DNA of 64,000 nucleotides from Rhodocyclaceae bacterium. Its GTDB lineage: Bacteria; Pseudomonadota; Gammaproteobacteria; Burkholderiales; Rhodocyclaceae. This document shows positions 13,019-25,601 of the stretch, in pieces (the stretch's first letter is position 1; every line of letters begins with the position of its first letter). A model generated the notes under the pieces. The model worked only from the letters and a program-made list of their open reading frames with translations, ran no database searches and was not told the origin of the DNA. The position numbers and the translations under genes are program-made. The stretch is taken from assembly GCA_028869135.1 (NCBI GenBank), contig JAGWTC010000014.1, positions 1 to 64,000 of the forward strand. The letters run 5' to 3'.

Positions 13019-14164
13019 CTAGCTGGTGCTACCGAGCAAGCTTGCGAGGGCCTTACGCAAGGTCGCGCGTCGGCAGCCGAAATTGAGGCGTACGAAATCG
13101 CCGCACGCGGCCGAAAAGTCCCGGCCCGACGACAAGGCCACACCCGAGGCCGTGCACCAGGCTTCGGGGTCGGCAAAGCCGCGCTGGCGGCAAAGCTCTC
13201 CCGCATCGATCCAGGCCAGGTAGGTCGCTTCAACTGGATGCATGCGCAGCCCCGACGTGGCGGCTACAGCATCTTCGACAAGCCGTGCGTTGCCGCGCAG
13301 ATAATCGAGCAAGGCAGCCAGCCAGTCGTCGCAGTCCTCCAGTGCGGCAATCGTCGCCGCCATGCCTATGACGTTGAGATGCGGCACGATGCCGGCCATC
13401 GCCTCGCGAAAGCGGCTGCGCAGCGCGGCATTCGGAATCACCGCCCAGGCGGCGCCGAGGCCGGGAATATTGTAGGTCTTGGAAGGCGCCATCAGAGTCA
13501 CGCTGCGCTCGGCGGCATCCGTCCCGAGCATTGCAAACGGCTTGTGCCGATACCGCGTATCGAGGATAAGGTCGCAATGGATTTCGTCGGAGCAGACGAT
13601 CAGGTCGTACTTCTGCGCGAGACGCGCGATCTCGTTCAGCTCCTCGTCGCGCCAGGCGCGACCGACGGGGTTGTGCGGATGGCAGAGCAGCCAGAGCTTG
13701 CTGGCGCTCACCGAGAGCGCCCGGTCTGCCGCCTCGAAGTCCCAGCGCCAGCCCTGCTCAGTGTCGAGCAGCGCCGTCGTCGTCAAGGCGCGCTTTTCGT
13801 TTTTCGGCGCGCTCATGAAAGGCGGATAAACCGGCGTGGCGGTGAATACGCCGCCCTCCACCGCCTTGCAGACGACATTAAGCGCCGACACCAGGCCCGG
13901 CAACCAGACCAGCCATTCGGCCTCGATATCCCAGCCATAGCGACGGTGTACATAATTCACCACCGCGGCATTGAGCGCCTCGGTTTCAATGCCGTAGCCG
14001 AAGACCCCGTGATCGAGTCGTCGCTGCAAGGCCGCGATTACCGGCGGCGGCGCGGCAAAGTCCATGTCCGCCACCCACAGCGGCAGCACGTCGGCGCCAT
14101 AGCGGCCCCACTTCATCGAATCGGTGCCGCGTCGCTCGATCGGCGTGTCGAAATCAAAAACCAT
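13019..14164 (-). CDS. MalY/PatB-type PLP aminotransferase, putative cystathionine beta-lyase
   Basis: A 381-residue fold-type I PLP enzyme from the ATG at 14164. I prefer this start to the one at 14185 because AAGGAG lies 9 bases upstream. The N-terminus MVFDFDTPIERRGTDSMKW is typical of PatB/MalY, shown by its key FDTPIERR. The PLP lysine is Lys229 in MAPSKTYNIPG; CHPHNPVGR and CSDEIHCDL hold the PLP phosphate and ring. Relatives cleave cystathionine to homocysteine, pyruvate and ammonia, and E. coli MalY also modulates the maltose regulon; methionine supply fits metH elsewhere in the window. Exact substrate is uncertain. Confidence 0.87.
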   Translation of the reverse strand: MVFDFDTPIERRGTDSMKWGRYGADVLPLWVADMDFAAPPPVIAALQRRLDHGVFGYGIETEALNAAVVNYVHRRYGWDIEAEWLVWLPGLVSALNVVCKAVEGGVFTATPVYPPFMSAPKNEKRALTTTALLDTEQGWRWDFEAADRALSVSASKLWLLCHPHNPVGRAWRDEELNEIARLAQKYDLIVCSDEIHCDLILDTRYRHKPFAMLGTDAAERSVTLMAPSKTYNIPGLGAAWAVIPNAALRSRFREAMAGIVPHLNVIGMAATIAALEDCDDWLAALLDYLRGNARLVEDAVAATSGLRMHPVEATYLAWIDAGELCRQRGFADPEAWCTASGVALSSGRDFSAACGDFVRLNFGCRRATLRKALASLLGSTS

Positions 14165-14334
14165 TCGCCTGCGCTCCTTGTTCATTGCATCGCTCGCTGC
14201 CCACCCTTGCGTGTCTCATCGCGTGCTTTTGCAACAAGACGACGCGAATCTCCCGCAATCGGAAAAAACGAAATTTTCAGCGGCGGCAGGGAGTACTAAT
14301 ATACAAGGCAGCTCACACGAAATGACATTTCAAT

Positions 14335-18526: not shown

Positions 18527-19318
18527 ATGCCCCTGACAGAAAACCGCCCGCCGAATGTGCTTACGCCGCTGAACGACGCATCGTCGCACGACGCACCGCT
18601 GCATCGACGGATACGCGAGCAACTGCGCGCACGCATCCTCGACGGCAGCTACGCGACCGACAGCCGCATGCCTTCCGAGGCCGAGCTCGGCGCGATCTTC
18701 GGCGTCAGCCGCATCACCGTGCGTCAGGCGCTCGGCGATCTGCAGAAGGAAGGGCTGATCCACCGCATCCACGGCAAGGGCACCTTCGCCGCCAAACCCA
18801 AGGCCTTCCAGAACGTTACGCATCTGCAGGGTTTCGCCGAGGCCATGGGCGCGATGGGCTATGAAATCGTCAACGATCTGCGCCGCTTCCGCTTCACGCC
18901 TGCCGAAGACGCCGTAGCGTTGAAGCTCGGCATTTCGGCAGGCGACACGGTGGTCGAAATCCACCGTGTGCGCTTTCTCAATCGCCAGCCGGTCTCGCTG
19001 GAAATCACCTGGCTGCCGGAGCACATCGGCCGCCGGCTTGAGCATGCGGACCTCGTGAGGCGCGACATCTTCCTGATCCTCGAGAACGACGGCGCCGTTC
19101 CGCTCGGCCATGCCGACCTCAGCATCGAGTCCATCCTCGCCGACGAAGAGCTGGTCGAAGCGCTGCAAACCGAAGAAGGCGCGCCGGTGCTGCGCATCGA
19201 GCGCCTGACGCACGATCGCGACGGGCGGCCTCTCGACTACGAGCATCTCTACTTCCGCGGCGACGCCTTCCAGTATCGATTCCGCATTGATCGCGAACAC
19301 CACAAGGGACAAGCATGA
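18527..19318 (+). CDS. GntR/HutC-family transcriptional regulator
   Basis: A 263-residue regulator. A winged helix-turn-helix lies at about residues 25-92 (PSEAELGAIFGVSRITVRQALG is the core; R-GKGTFAAKP forms the wing). A UTRA effector-binding domain follows at about 105-250. HutC-type members are usually repressors released by a small ligand related to the pathway they control. The stop overlaps the AprA-like start by 4 bases (ATGA), so it is the first gene of the operon and its level is coupled to that of the enzyme. No strong ribosome-binding site precedes it. The ligand is unknown, likely the imported compound or a product. Confidence 0.92.
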   Translation: MPLTENRPPNVLTPLNDASSHDAPLHRRIREQLRARILDGSYATDSRMPSEAELGAIFGVSRITVRQALGDLQKEGLIHRIHGKGTFAAKPKAFQNVTHLQGFAEAMGAMGYEIVNDLRRFRFTPAEDAVALKLGISAGDTVVEIHRVRFLNRQPVSLEITWLPEHIGRRLEHADLVRRDIFLILENDGAVPLGHADLSIESILADEELVEALQTEEGAPVLRIERLTHDRDGRPLDYEHLYFRGDAFQYRFRIDREHHKGQA

Positions 19319-21078: not shown

Positions 21079-21324
21079 ATGCCATTCATACCCACGGAAA
21101 TCGCCTTGCGCAGCAGCGCGCCCGTCACCATCGATCACGACAAGTGCATCGGCGACAAGGGCTGCACCGTCTGCGTGGACGTCTGCCCGCTCGACCTGCT
21201 CGCCATCGACAAGAGCACCGGCAAGGCCTACATGCAGTTCGACGAGTGCTGGTACTGCCTGCCCTGTCAGCACGACTGCCCGACCGGGGCGCTCAAGGTC
21301 GACATCCCTTACCTGCTGCGCTGA
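21079..21324 (+). CDS. AprB-like ferredoxin with two 4Fe-4S clusters
   Basis: An 81-residue protein with eight cysteines in two cluster motifs: CIGDKGCTVCVDVCP (CX5CX2CX3CP) and CWYCLPCQHDCP (CX2CX2CX3CP). The second motif, then TGALKVD, matches the AprB pattern CWxCxxCxxxCPxGA. Typical AprB is about 150 residues with a C-terminal tail that wraps AprA; here that tail is missing. It is expected to pass electrons to or from the FAD of the preceding flavoprotein. It has GGAGAAAAGAAG just before its ATG and belongs to the same operon. Confidence 0.9.
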   Translation: MPFIPTEIALRSSAPVTIDHDKCIGDKGCTVCVDVCPLDLLAIDKSTGKAYMQFDECWYCLPCQHDCPTGALKVDIPYLLR

Positions 21325-21351: not shown

Positions 21352-22779
21352 ATGCAATATCCGAAACTGTTAGGCGGACTTCTGCTCGCCTTCGCTACGC
21401 TGGCCGGCAATAACGCCTGGGCCGAGACCATCCGCGTTGCCATCGGCACACAGGACACCACGATCAATTGCGCCGCCGGCGGCCTGATCGTGCGCGAACT
21501 CAAGCTGCTCGACAAGTACCTGCCGCGCGACGGCAAGTACAAGGACGTGAACTACGAAATCGTCTGGAAGGACTTCACCTCGGGCGCGCCGCTGACCAAT
21601 GAAATGGTCGCCGGCAAGCTGGACATCGGCAATATGGCCGACTTTCCCGGCGCCAATAACGGCGTGGCCCACCTGAAGGCCGGCAAGAAGAGCGTCTTCA
21701 TCAGCGTGCTGTCGGGCAGCACCATAGGCAGCGGCAACGGCATCGTGGTGCCGCTCGACTCGAAGATCCAGACCATCGAGGATCTGCGCGGCAAGAACGT
21801 TTCCGTGCCGTTCGCCTCGACCTCGCACGGCATGCTGTTGCGCGTGCTCAAGGATCACAACATCGATCCGGACAAGGACCTCAAGCTGACCACCCAGTCG
21901 CCGGAAGTCGCCGGCTCGGCGCTCAAAGCCGGCAAGATCGACGCCCACGCCGACTTCGTGCCCTTCGCCGAACTGTTCCCCTTCCGCGGCATCGCCAAGA
22001 AGATCTACGACGGCGCCCAGGCCAACGTGCCGACCTATCACGGCGCGCTCGTGAACGTCGATTATGCGAACAAGTATCCGGAGATCGTCGTCGCCTATCT
22101 GCGCGCCGTGATCGAAGCCAATCGTCTCTTCGACGAAGATCCGGAAAAGTACAGCGAGCTGATCGCCAAGGCTTCCGGCGTCGATGCAGAAGTGAACTAC
22201 TTCTTCCACGGTCCGCTCGGTCTGCAGACGCGCGACCTGTCATGGAAGCCGGAATACCGCGAAGCCTTGCGCACCGCGATCAAGACCCTGGTGCTGCTGA
22301 AGCGTACCGACACCTATCTCGACCCGGAAACCTTCATCGACGACCGCTATATCCGCGAAGCCTTCAAGGAGTCCGGTCTCGACTACGAGAAGCAGCTGAG
22401 GAATTACGCCAAGCTGCCGCTCAATGTGAAGGACGCCCGTAGCGGCGCCGTCATCGCGGAGCCGAAGCTGGCCGCACAGCTCTGGGTCGCCGGAGAAGCG
22501 AAGGTGCGCGCCTATGCCACGCCGGAATCCGCCTTCGCCGACCAGGCGGCGCTGGAGAAGGACGGCAGGAAGATCCGCGTCGGCTACGTTCACGATCGCA
22601 ACTCGGGCTTGAAGCTCTTTTCCAACCAGGCCTTTTACGTGAAGAACGCCAAGGGTCAGATCGCCGCTTTCCTCGACAGGCGCTCGGCTGATGCATGGGC
22701 CAAGGCCAAGGGCGGCAGCGTTGTCGATTACGCAGCGCTGACCGGCGCCAAGCCGGCCAAGCTGGCCGCCGCGAACTGA
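21352..22779 (+). CDS. SsuA-like ABC substrate-binding protein with NosL-like C-terminal extension
   Basis: A 475-residue periplasmic protein. Residues 1-24 form a signal peptide (LLLAFATLAGNNAWA). Residues about 25-390 resemble the nitrate/sulfonate/taurine binding family, with VAIGTQDTTINCAAGG and the typical DLRGKNVSVPFASTSHG. SsuA-type proteins are about 320 residues; this one carries about 80 extra residues at 400-475. QAFYVKNAKGQIAAF and SADAWAKAKGGSVVDYAAL recall the NosL fold, whose founding members bind Cu(I) during nitrous oxide reductase assembly. Its ligand is probably an organic or inorganic sulfur oxyanion. The gene follows the ferredoxin by 27 bases and starts after AAGGAGAGAAC. 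Confidence 0.85.
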   Translation: MQYPKLLGGLLLAFATLAGNNAWAETIRVAIGTQDTTINCAAGGLIVRELKLLDKYLPRDGKYKDVNYEIVWKDFTSGAPLTNEMVAGKLDIGNMADFPGANNGVAHLKAGKKSVFISVLSGSTIGSGNGIVVPLDSKIQTIEDLRGKNVSVPFASTSHGMLLRVLKDHNIDPDKDLKLTTQSPEVAGSALKAGKIDAHADFVPFAELFPFRGIAKKIYDGAQANVPTYHGALVNVDYANKYPEIVVAYLRAVIEANRLFDEDPEKYSELIAKASGVDAEVNYFFHGPLGLQTRDLSWKPEYREALRTAIKTLVLLKRTDTYLDPETFIDDRYIREAFKESGLDYEKQLRNYAKLPLNVKDARSGAVIAEPKLAAQLWVAGEAKVRAYATPESAFADQAALEKDGRKIRVGYVHDRNSGLKLFSNQAFYVKNAKGQIAAFLDRRSADAWAKAKGGSVVDYAALTGAKPAKLAAAN

Positions 22780-22835: not shown

Positions 22836-23723
22836 ATGAGCAATCAAGCCGTCGCAAGCCGGGGGAACGTCGAGCCCGGCGCAGCCCAAGCCCCTGCCTT
22901 GCGATCCAGGCCGGCCGCACCGGCCTCTTCCCGTTTCGCCGTCGGCGGCGGTCGCCATGCCGCCATCAAGCTGGCGTCGGTGGCGGCCTTTATCGCACTG
23001 TGGCAATGGCTGTCCTCGAACCATGTCGATCTGAAGATCATCACCTTCGCCAATATCCCGGCGCCGAGCGACGTGGCGCCGGCATTCCTCAATCTGTTGG
23101 AGTCGCCCAAGCTCGCCGCCCATATCGGCAACAGCCTTTGGCGCGTCTTCGCCGGTTTCATCGCCGCGGCCGCGCTGGGCATAGGCCTCGGCCTTATCGT
23201 CGGCCGCTCGCGCTGGGTCGCCGACATCCTGATGCCGCCGCTTGAAATACTGCGCCCGATTCCCGGCGTCGCCTGGATCCCGGTGGCCATCCTGGCCTTT
23301 CCCTCGTCCGAAGCCTCGATGATCTTCATCACCTTCATGGGCGCATTGTTCCCGGTGCTGCTCAACACCATCCACGGCGTCGAAAGCGTGGACCCGCGAC
23401 TGATCGCCACCGCGCGCAGCCTCGGCGCCAAGCCGCTCTCGATTTTCCTGGAAGTCATCCTGCCCAGCGCCACGCCCAGCATCACCACGGGGCTGGCCAT
23501 CGGCATGGGCACGGCGTGGTTCTGCCTCGTCACGGCCGAAATGATCTCGGGCGAATTCGGCATCGGCTACTTCACCTGGGAATCGTACAGCCTGCAGAAC
23601 TATGCGGACATTCTGGTCGGCATGGTCTTCATCGGCGCATTCGGCATGCTCTCCAGCGTCTTCATCAAGCAGGCCGGCCGCGCGCTGACGCCGTGGCTGG
23701 CGACGCAGGAAAAGCAGCACTAG
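22836..23723 (+). CDS. SsuC/TauC-type ABC transporter permease
   Basis: A 295-residue inner-membrane permease with about six helices after a polar Pro/Ala-rich N-terminus of about 45 residues. It carries the conserved cytoplasmic EAA-like loop (SLGAKPLSIFLEVILPSATPSI), where the ATPase docks; by its key part, GAKPLSIFLEVILP. The family moves nitrate, sulfonates, taurine or bicarbonate. It lies between the binding protein and the ATPase and ends 8 bases before the latter, so it is part of the same importer. The N-terminal extension is unexplained. Confidence 0.92.
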   Translation: MSNQAVASRGNVEPGAAQAPALRSRPAAPASSRFAVGGGRHAAIKLASVAAFIALWQWLSSNHVDLKIITFANIPAPSDVAPAFLNLLESPKLAAHIGNSLWRVFAGFIAAAALGIGLGLIVGRSRWVADILMPPLEILRPIPGVAWIPVAILAFPSSEASMIFITFMGALFPVLLNTIHGVESVDPRLIATARSLGAKPLSIFLEVILPSATPSITTGLAIGMGTAWFCLVTAEMISGEFGIGYFTWESYSLQNYADILVGMVFIGAFGMLSSVFIKQAGRALTPWLATQEKQH

Positions 23724-23731
23724 GAGACGAA

Positions 23732-24622
23732 ATGAACGCAATCAATGAAGCGATTTCTCCGGACGCCGGCGTCGCCGTCGGCAATATCGAAATCAACGGC
23801 GTCGGCATCGAGCTCGGCCGGGGGGCGGACCGCTTCGAGGCGGTCCGCAATCTCGATCTCGACATTCCGGCCGGCCAGTTCGTCTGCCTGCTCGGCCCTT
23901 CGGGCTGCGGCAAATCGACGCTGCTGGGCGCCATTGCCGGCCACATTCGGGCCACACATGGCGCGGTGCGTCTCGACGGCGAGCGCATCAACGGACCGCA
24001 TCCGGATCGCGGCCTCGTCTTCCAGCACCACACGCTGTTTCCGTGGAAGAAGGTCATCGACAACGTGGCCTTCGGGCTCAAGATGAAGGGCGTGGCCAAG
24101 GCCGAGCGCAACAAGCGCGCGCTGGAACTCATCAAGCTGGTCGGTCTCGGCGGCTTCGAAAACCGATACCCGGCGCAACTTTCCGGCGGCATGCAGCAGC
24201 GCGTCGAAATCGCTCGCGTGCTGATCAACCATCCGCGCGTACTGTTGATGGACGAGCCTTTCGGCGCGCTCGACGCGCTGACGCGCAACATGATGCAGGA
24301 GTTGCTGCTCGAGGTCTGGGAGAAAATCAGGACCACGGTCGTCTTCGTCACCCACGACATCGACGAGGCGCTCTTCCTCGCCGACCGCGTCATTGTGATG
24401 ACGCACCGTCCGGGCCGGCTGCTTGCCGACATCCCGATCGGGTTCCCGCGCCCGCGCAATCGCGATCTGCTGACCGCGCCCGAGTTCGTCGCCATCAAGC
24501 GTCAGTGCCTGCATCTGCTGCACGGCGAACACGAGCAGTTCAAACAGGCCGATCCGCTCCAGCGACTGTCGCCGCTGGGCCCCAGCCTGATCACCGAAAC
24601 ACAAGTCCATCTGAGCGAATAA
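23732..24622 (+). CDS. SsuB/TauB-type ABC transporter ATP-binding protein
   Basis: A 296-residue ATPase. Walker A is GPSGCGKST (55-63), the signature is LSGGMQQR, Walker B is [12 protein letters not shown], and the H loop is FVTHDIDEAL. These drive import through the adjacent permease. The chosen start at 23732 follows AGGAGACGAA; the open frame extends upstream into the permease gene. The C-terminus of about 40 residues past the ATPase core is ordinary for the nitrate/sulfonate/taurine class. The HEAT-repeat gene follows after 4 bases. Confidence 0.93.
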   Translation: MNAINEAISPDAGVAVGNIEINGVGIELGRGADRFEAVRNLDLDIPAGQFVCLLGPSGCGKSTLLGAIAGHIRATHGAVRLDGERINGPHPDRGLVFQHHTLFPWKKVIDNVAFGLKMKGVAKAERNKRALELIKLVGLGGFENRYPAQLSGGMQQRVEIARVLINHPRVLLMDEPFGALDALTRNMMQELLLEVWEKIRTTVVFVTHDIDEALFLADRVIVMTHRPGRLLADIPIGFPRPRNRDLLTAPEFVAIKRQCLHLLHGEHEQFKQADPLQRLSPLGPSLITETQVHLSE

Positions 24623-24626
24623 CACG

Positions 24627-25601
24627 ATGAGCCAAGCCCTCCCGGATATTTTCGAAACCCCGGAACTCACGCCCTTCCTGCTGCGCCTGCAGGAAGCCGA
24701 TGCCGCCGTGCGCCGCATCGCCGTGCTCGATCTCGCCGACCTCGAAGACGAGGAAGCGCTGCCGGTATTGATAGATGCGCTGCTTCACGATCACGACGAA
24801 AGCGTGCGTCTGGAATCCGCGCGCGTGCTGGCGTCCTGGGAAACCCCCGAGGTCGTCACCGCCCTGCTCGACGGCCTCACCGACGCCGATTCCGCCGTTG
24901 CCGAAGCTGCGGCACAGAGCTTGTCGGAACTCAAGGATGTGGCGCTGGCGCCGCTTCTGGTCGAACGCACCCGCCACGCCTCCGCCTTCGTGCGCGCCGC
25001 CGTGCTGCGCGGCCTGCGCGAACTGCGCTACCCGCAGGCCTATGCGCCGGCGGTCAAGGCGCTCGACGACGCAGACGCCGATGTGCGCCGCGAAGCGGTC
25101 ACCGTAATCGGCTGGTTGAAGCAAAGCGACGCGCTGACCGACCTCGCACGCCTGGCGGCCGGCGATCCGGCGGTTGAAGTCCGCCGCGCCGCCACCGGCG
25201 CGCTAGGCCTGGCGTCTGACACCAAGGTGCTGCCGTCGCTCTACGCGGCGCTCGACGACAAGGAATGGCAGGTGCGCGAAGAGGCGGCGATCACGCTGGG
25301 CAAGCTGAAGCTGCCCGAGTCGGAAGCCGCATTGACGCAGGCGCTGAACGACGAATACTGGCAGGTGAAGCTGCAGGCCGTTCGCGCGTTGGGCCGTTTG
25401 CGTGCGCGCCGCGTGACCCCGCAGTTCGGCGAGCTGTTTCATCACCCGGTCAGCAATCTGCGCAAGGAAGTCGCGCTGGCGCTCGGCGAAATCGGCGACG
25501 CGGCGGCGCTACCGCTGCTTGAAGCCGCCGCCAACGACGCCGATCCCGACGTACGCAAATCGGTGCGCATTGCGCTGGCGCAGATCCGCGCCGCCGCCTG
25601 A
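24627..25601 (+). CDS. HEAT-repeat protein of the AprBA-like operon
   Basis: A 324-residue all-helical protein made of about nine repeats of roughly 31 residues, each with the pattern DxxxxVRxxAxxALGxL (for example DPAVEVRRAATGALG and DDKEWQVREEAAITLGKL by its key part). Such HEAT/PBS-lyase-like repeats act as scaffolds or in cofactor attachment. No catalytic motif is visible. Its gene starts 4 bases after the ATPase stop, so it is expressed with the transporter and enzyme; a role in assembling the flavoprotein-ferredoxin complex is inferred. The convergent pyrF ends 11 bases away. Confidence 0.85.
   Translation: MSQALPDIFETPELTPFLLRLQEADAAVRRIAVLDLADLEDEEALPVLIDALLHDHDESVRLESARVLASWETPEVVTALLDGLTDADSAVAEAAAQSLSELKDVALAPLLVERTRHASAFVRAAVLRGLRELRYPQAYAPAVKALDDADADVRREAVTVIGWLKQSDALTDLARLAAGDPAVEVRRAATGALGLASDTKVLPSLYAALDDKEWQVREEAAITLGKLKLPESEAALTQALNDEYWQVKLQAVRALGRLRARRVTPQFGELFHHPVSNLRKEVALALGEIGDAAALPLLEAAANDADPDVRKSVRIALAQIRAAA

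Follow-up and report, generated by a model that had tools for sequence, protein, structure and literature searches.

A SsuA/TauA-type binding protein with a predicted NosL-homologous C-terminal domain in a putative sulfur-scavenging operon of a Rhodocyclaceae bacterium

The window analysed here is the whole stretch of 64,000 nucleotides of the Rhodocyclaceae contig. On its forward strand an open reading frame with its ATG at 21352 and a stop codon ending at 22779 (21352..22779, +) encodes a binding protein of 475 amino acids. Three parts could be distinguished in this protein, namely a signal peptide (about residues 1-24, judged by eye), a SsuA/TauA-type core and a NosL-like C-terminal tail comprising approximately residues 361-465 (22432..22746, +; Pfam match 371-464).

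The first gene of the surrounding cluster encodes a GntR/UTRA-type regulator (18527..19318, +; Pfam UTRA 127.1 and GntR 72.3 bits), followed by an FAD-dependent flavoprotein of the APS/PAPS-reductase alpha-subunit branch (PRK08275; 19315..21066, +; NF006131 1102.8 bits, cut-off 587) and an AprB-like 4Fe-4S dicluster ferredoxin of 81 amino acids (21079..21324, +; Pfam Fer4_7 40.1 bits). After the binding protein stand an ABC permease of the SsuC/NtrB type (22836..23723, +; Pfam BPD_transp_1 84.2 bits), an ABC ATPase of the SsuB/TauB type, the start of which was chosen by eye (23732..24622, +; Pfam ABC_tran 116.9 bits), and a HEAT-repeat protein (24627..25601, +; Pfam HEAT_2 204.9 bits). The best NCBIfam models were ntrB, SaoP and SsuC for the permease and taurine, SaoA and ntrCD for the ATPase, all of them remaining under their own cut-offs. 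Upstream in the window, on the reverse strand, there are a Ser_hydrolase gene (PF06821; 17657-18424), with another PF06821 gene lying near the operon in locus L027, and a class I/II aminotransferase (13019-14185) which we take to be PatB/MalY-like.

When the flavoprotein was ranked against PDB sequences, the alpha subunit of the Methanothermococcus PAPS reductase came first (209.6 bits), then APS reductase (165.5 bits) and succinate dehydrogenase (85.3 bits). The curated APS reductase cut-offs were not reached (294.2 bits vs 557, and 185.5 vs 641.75 for TIGR02061, AprA). The ferredoxin matched AprB chains at 42.2 and 37.8 bits and the beta subunit of MtPAPSR at 29.0 bits, two other ferredoxins scoring higher. 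To our knowledge no substrate is known for the bacterial PRK08275-type branch of these flavoproteins. MtPAPSR itself is described as converting PAPS to sulfite and PAP (PMC10322725).

Of 199 genomes belonging to the window's family, 30 had a match to the binding protein, which in one case covered residues 11-186 alone. In a wider draw of the class a full-length match was present in 4 of 369 genomes, the window's own excepted. Additionally, 45 plasmid records from Pseudomonadota, cyanobacteria and actinobacteria carried a match, and in 41 of them it spans 80% or more of the query. The fusion was detected in Pseudomonadota, in Cyanobacteriota and, with weaker NosL evidence, in Actinomycetota. 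The loci for comparison were chosen from 20 of the 29 family genomes other than the window's own, 4 of the 5 of the class draw, 12 of the 14 Pseudomonadota genomes with a binding-protein-type match (own again left aside), 13 of the 45 plasmid records and 3 of the 4 loci of another search. The 51 loci of the operon counts exclude the window, and the 51 rows of the tail alignment, of the tree and of the cysteine counts include it. Locus L045 was dropped from these rows, as it is seemingly one contig with L001 (both of length 40867, with equal percent identity to the query). L037, the open reading frame of which extends beyond the usual end, was left out of the alignment and the tree; its tail holds both cysteines of the clade discussed below, and the operon counts list it as having none, so that moving it to the cysteine group gives 21 and 30 loci.

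The operon proved to be widely kept. Around the 51 related loci tblastn detected the permease and the ATPase in every case, the flavoprotein in 49, the ferredoxin in 46 and the HEAT protein in 45, where some of the absences may reflect the end of the fetched stretch; the regulator was matched in 36, in some at just 25-35% identity. In Tsukamurella (L117:10857-13538) the flavoprotein gene has about 890 codons and there is no separate HEAT match, pointing to a fusion of flavoprotein and HEAT protein of the kind seen in PRK13800. In L001, the closest relative of the window, a block (L001:1928-5672) absent from the window places a sulfotransferase, a second ABC gene set and a shorter binding-protein-like reading frame between the flavoprotein and the binding protein. 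Two cyanobacterial loci contain a second match to the binding-protein core on the opposite strand, with about 34% identity over residues 20-281 (L002:9549-10322 and L003:9413-10198, both reverse). A small DUF971/GBBH-like_N protein is matched near the operon in 28 of the 51 loci (e.g. L044:9127-9432).

Genes of sulfur metabolism were also seen beyond the operon. Thirteen named plasmid records were fetched, 11 of which were annotated, and sulfur-type genes stand beside the operon in six of these 11. They are a SsuA-type system with a DmoA-type monooxygenase; TauE/SafE with ThiS; an aliphatic-sulfonate ABC system; 3-mercaptopropionate dioxygenase with a rhodanese-type protein; LLM-type oxidoreductases in Sinorhizobium fredii NXT3, which is the least clear case; and, on a Paraburkholderia plasmid (L123:7923-15127), a transporter of the cysteine-containing clade followed by an arylsulfatase, a formylglycine-generating enzyme and a SulP transporter. 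No flavoprotein was found within the stretch fetched around the Paraburkholderia locus, and its arylsulfatase neighbourhood may serve as a clue to the substrate. The other five annotated records had no recognisable sulfur neighbour outside the operon.

The core of the binding protein is of the SsuA/TauA type. Four SsuA/TauA models, 290-320 positions long, match inside residues 28-332, and the protein is consequently about 155 residues longer than SsuA or TauA. The preliminary description had rightly called it much longer than SsuA, its estimate of 120-150 residues being slightly too low, and the four strings that it had quoted from the tail (VGYVHDRNSG, QAFYV, AAF and ADAWAKAKGGSVVDY) all lie within the extra residues. 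The curated cut-offs of the specific families were not reached (TIGR01728, SsuA: 115.3 bits over residues 65-332 vs 163.5; TIGR01729, TauA: 91.8 bits vs 304.25), and those of the broader families PF13379 (NMT1_2; 41.9 vs 24.7 bits) and PF09084 (NMT1; 35 vs 20.5 bits) were passed. The closest solved relatives of the core are the taurine-binding protein 6ssy (E 3.4e-17) and SsuA 2x26 (E 6.6e-14), with alignments ending at residues 267 and 288 respectively. The tail might in principle have been a continuation of the SsuA lobes. This was rejected, as the SsuA model has reached its end by residue 332 and the core has no match to NosL (hhalign score 13.1, probability 0.16%).

The relationship of the tail with NosL was followed by several methods, and Pfam, hhalign, a PDB profile search and Foldseek agree with the initial proposal of a NosL-like domain on a sulfonate-type binding protein. 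Of the two results named at the outset as refuting it, lack of a NosL match and a fold running on from the SsuA lobes, neither was obtained. Pfam NosL (PF05573) is the sole family matched by the isolated tail (E 5.3e-4), its 20.8 bits, and the 15.4 bits of the whole protein, remaining under the cut-off of 24. Among seven tails of relatives three exceeded the cut-off (26.3, 27.8 and 25.6 bits), three matched under it (20.1, 16.2 and 22.3 bits), and that of the actinobacterium Nonomuraea had no Pfam NosL match; in a scan of 21 family tails NosL appeared at E<=1 in 20. The region is longer than the 22549-22776 first assigned to it, since the Pfam match (371-464) corresponds to 22462-22743 and the profile-profile alignment starts from about residue 361.

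For the profile comparison 35 NosL domains were taken from NosL genes in the genome of the window and in related ones. Against these, hhalign gave a probability of 97.5% with 21 tails (score 70.2), 96.6% with 14 cysteine-less tails of Pseudomonadota (59.7), 96.9% when two cyanobacterial tails were added to those 14 (62.8) and 96.9% with five cysteine-containing tails (61.5). The top score of column shuffles, 60 for each of three tail alignments, was 19.9, vs 59.7-70.2 for the real ones; identity in these tail-NosL profile alignments is 21-27%. With all 51 tails the score rose to 86.4, and it was 72.1 for the 20 tails with and 78.1 for the 31 tails without cysteines (97.6-98.4%). Actinobacterial tails are weaker in this respect: the two score 52.6 and 32.4 bits with a tail model from which they had been left out, and reach 38% and 58% against NosL singly and 90% together. 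When the tail profile was searched against all PDB sequences, the top four were NosL (E 0.0012, 0.014, 0.015 and 0.11), followed by a ribosomal protein at E 0.91. The same profile matched 33 of 299 Pseudomonadota genomes, 15 with binding-protein-type hits (own included) at E 3.5e-23 or better and 18 with weaker hits at E 1e-10 to 7e-4. Fifteen of these 18 had loci, and all of them proved to be stand-alone NosL genes (Pfam NosL 132.9-171.5 bits), each with a CXM motif as judged by eye.

Structure prediction points in the same direction. The tail modelled alone (residues 352-468, four-row alignment) had a mean pLDDT of 71 and showed a beta-beta-alpha-beta order twice, in keeping with the two repeats of NosL as described in PMC6530538 and PMC7558416. 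The full-length model, also from a four-row alignment, had a mean pLDDT of 39.6, and the secondary structure of its tail agrees with the tail-alone model. The five best PDB hits of Foldseek were NosL chains, 7og7 being first (E 4.3e-4, probability 1.00; the single hit with E<=0.001) and NosDFYL entries occupying ranks 2-5 (E 0.022-0.083). VIA-align 2 placed the same five chains on top with Z 6.5-5.0 and rmsd 6.3-7.0 A, where unrelated rows follow at Z 4.5 and below, little under NosL, and the NMR structure of NosL (2hpu) had Z 3.8. Sequence and model taken together, the tail is almost certainly homologous to NosL and fused to a sulfonate-type binding protein.

The metal site of NosL was then compared with the tail. 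NosL binds Cu(I), the proposed ligands being the Cys and the Met of a CXM motif, and one further Met is given as absolutely conserved (PMC6530538). Neither Cys nor Met occurs in the tail of the window protein, which has one His, and CXM is absent from all 51 family tails. The lack of CXM is not decisive by itself, because the motif is present in 23 and absent from 12 of the 35 NosL rows; in 10 rows Asp replaces its Cys, including the NosL of the window's own genome (L005, G000:C62:55209-55598, 160.1 bits), the motif of which is CxxDGM and not CXXCXM. This gene lies on another contig, so that one genome contains both the tail domain and a stand-alone NosL. A Met in the second repeat, which we infer to be the other conserved Met of PMC6530538, is found in 34 of the 35 NosL rows; when NosL is aligned with the window's clade, it falls opposite a gap. 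We therefore discarded a NosL-type copper site for the window protein, since every sulfur ligand of the proposed Cu(I) site is missing from it. As far as can be judged from its residues, the protein very probably has no such site, and the metal handling of the NosL kind that had been put forward for it at the outset is not supported. The other early suggestion, a different ligand for the fold, may still hold.

A sister clade of the fusion carries two cysteines in the tail, and these occur as a pair: both are present in 20 of the 51 rows, neither in 31, and a single one in none. The column of Cys1 is that of the CXM cysteine, with Cys in 23 and Asp in 10 of the 35 NosL rows; the column of Cys2 has Cys in 9 of the 35. 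The window protein has Ser364 and Ser393 at these positions. On the tree of the binding-protein core the distribution of the cysteine label requires two changes, which the starred branches impose. Gains and losses of the pair are both possible because this tree is unrooted, and loss of Cys1 would be the simpler story given the homology of the tail with NosL.

Some neighbours differ between the clades. A second ferredoxin, of the FdxA type and 111 amino acids long (Fer4 and DUF3470 in the L039 copy), accompanies mostly the cysteine clade, in 14 of 20 loci vs 3 of 31, or 15 of 21 vs 2 of 30 with L037 moved, figures that do not amount to a test because the sequences are related. It was found in L036-L044, L116, L122, L127, L128, L136 and L140, and also in the cysteine-less L130 and L141. 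A membrane protein adjoins the operon in six cysteine-less loci (L028, L030, L031, L033, L034 and L035); in L031 (1747-2988, reverse strand) it has Fer4_5 domains and is presumably NapH/NosR-like.

A soft-metal, thiol or disulfide site may be what the pair contributes to the tails of the sister clade. The possibility that it is a structural or redox disulfide binding no metal, and that the cysteine-less clades stabilise the domain otherwise, would explain why the cysteines come together or not at all (20, 31 and no mixed case among 51), and it suits the absence from all 51 tails of CXM, whose Met is the proposed second sulfur ligand of copper in NosL (PMC6530538). On the other hand Cys1 sits in the column of the proposed copper ligand of NosL, which is Cys in 23 of 35 rows, and we consider the disulfide explanation rather unlikely, ahead of the other alternatives.

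Selection on the tail was estimated from six pairs, some of which are not independent: dN/dS was 0.06-0.26 in the tail and 0.03-0.13 in the core. The tail exceeded the core in five pairs, the exception being that of the window and L001, with 0.118 for the tail. Trp378 is present in all 51 rows, and Asp415 and Lys421 in 48 each. By this codon comparison the tails without cysteines are under purifying selection in the pairs tested. Retention of a domain devoid of sulfur ligands speaks against metal binding as the function that these tails have in common.

Taken together, the observations are best explained by an organosulfur importer of the SsuABC/TauABC type whose binding protein bears a NosL-homologous tail without copper site, used for docking or gating; for this explanation as a whole we regard the chances as even. 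The 475-residue protein probably catches sulfur compounds for import, and would be the periplasmic component of such an importer. Judged from the neighbouring genes, the operon most likely scavenges an oxidised organosulfur compound, which would be reduced after import by the flavoprotein-ferredoxin pair, probably to sulfite. The tail may act as a protein-protein or gating module, docking the binding protein on the permease or on the substrate cleft. Such a function is proposed because NosL sits in complex with the NosDFY ABC transporter, and because the cysteine-less tails appear to be under purifying selection. Taken by itself this part of the model is tentative, somewhat short of even chances, as it is drawn by analogy. 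In the cysteine clade a soft-metal, thiol or disulfide function might be added to it.

Alternatively, the tail could be a second ligand site which binds the organosulfur compound or a thiol-metal adduct and hands it to the SsuA-type cleft. The conserved Trp378, Asp415 and Lys421 could line a pocket, and the NosL fold does hold a soft ligand according to PMC6530538; against this, no link was found between the three residues and any ligand, and the MerB structure among the Foldseek hits was not significant (rank 8, E 0.74), which leaves a second site unlikely. Less likely still is a switchable second capture site, where the cysteine pair would take soft-metal or thiol adducts and the cysteine-less tails a metal-free compound; if true, it would mean that a copper-chaperone fold has been reused for nutrient uptake.

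Retention of metal binding in the window protein too, with an importer or a cargo that needs copper or another soft metal, is very improbable. True NosL binds Cu(I) (PMC6530538), the sister clade conserves a cysteine pair with one member in the CXM cysteine column, and CXM is missing from 12 of 35 NosL rows as well; the window tail nevertheless has no Cys, no Met and a single His, the second-repeat Met kept in 34 of 35 NosL rows stands opposite a gap, and the cysteine-less tails (31 of 51) were constrained in all three such pairs tested. That the likeness to NosL is due to chance in an unrelated C-terminal extension is hardly credible, despite the 20.8 bits under the cut-off of 24, the 21-27% identity and VIA-align Z values of just 5.0-6.5, since several tests converge on NosL and shuffling failed to reproduce the score.

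The proposed importer with a docking or gating tail can be compared with known systems. Like NosL (PF05573; 7og7, 7znq, 7osf-7osj, 2hpu), the tail would have two beta-beta-alpha-beta repeats with conserved segments in the same order, and Cys1 of the sister clade occupies the CXM cysteine column. Unlike NosL, it has no CXM in any of the 51 tails and, in the window's clade, a gap at the second-repeat Met; it is fused to a binding protein, and the surrounding genes are not nos genes. NosL is lipid-anchored, whereas the signal peptide of the window protein contains no Cys (by eye), and thus there is no lipobox. With SsuA and TauA (TIGR01728, TIGR01729; 2x26, 6ssy) the protein shares the core within residues 28-332 and the transporter type, but it is about 155 residues longer and stays under the curated cut-offs. 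The flavoprotein and the ferredoxin match the alpha and beta subunits of AprAB and MtPAPSR (1jnr, 2fja, 3gyx, 8a8o), yet here they are coupled with an importer and a HEAT protein. In NosDFYL, according to the titles of the PDB entries, NosL also stands alongside an ABC transporter, but as a separate protein, whereas in the present case the domain is inside the binding protein of the importer. NosDFYL is a complex for assembling a copper site and not an importer.

Among the matches listed in the open-access literature, neither a binding protein bearing a NosL domain nor such an operon was described, and the fusion, its multi-phylum operon and the both-or-neither cysteine pair seem to be undescribed so far. 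The NosL match alone is a poor ground for annotating such proteins as copper proteins. The cysteine pair, which a tail has either whole or not at all, offers a clear-cut way to probe the role of the fold in the absence of a copper site. Furthermore, the conserved fusion joins the fold of a copper chaperone to an importer of the sulfur type, and the APS/PAPS-reductase-related flavoprotein in the operon hints at a sulfur-scavenging route.
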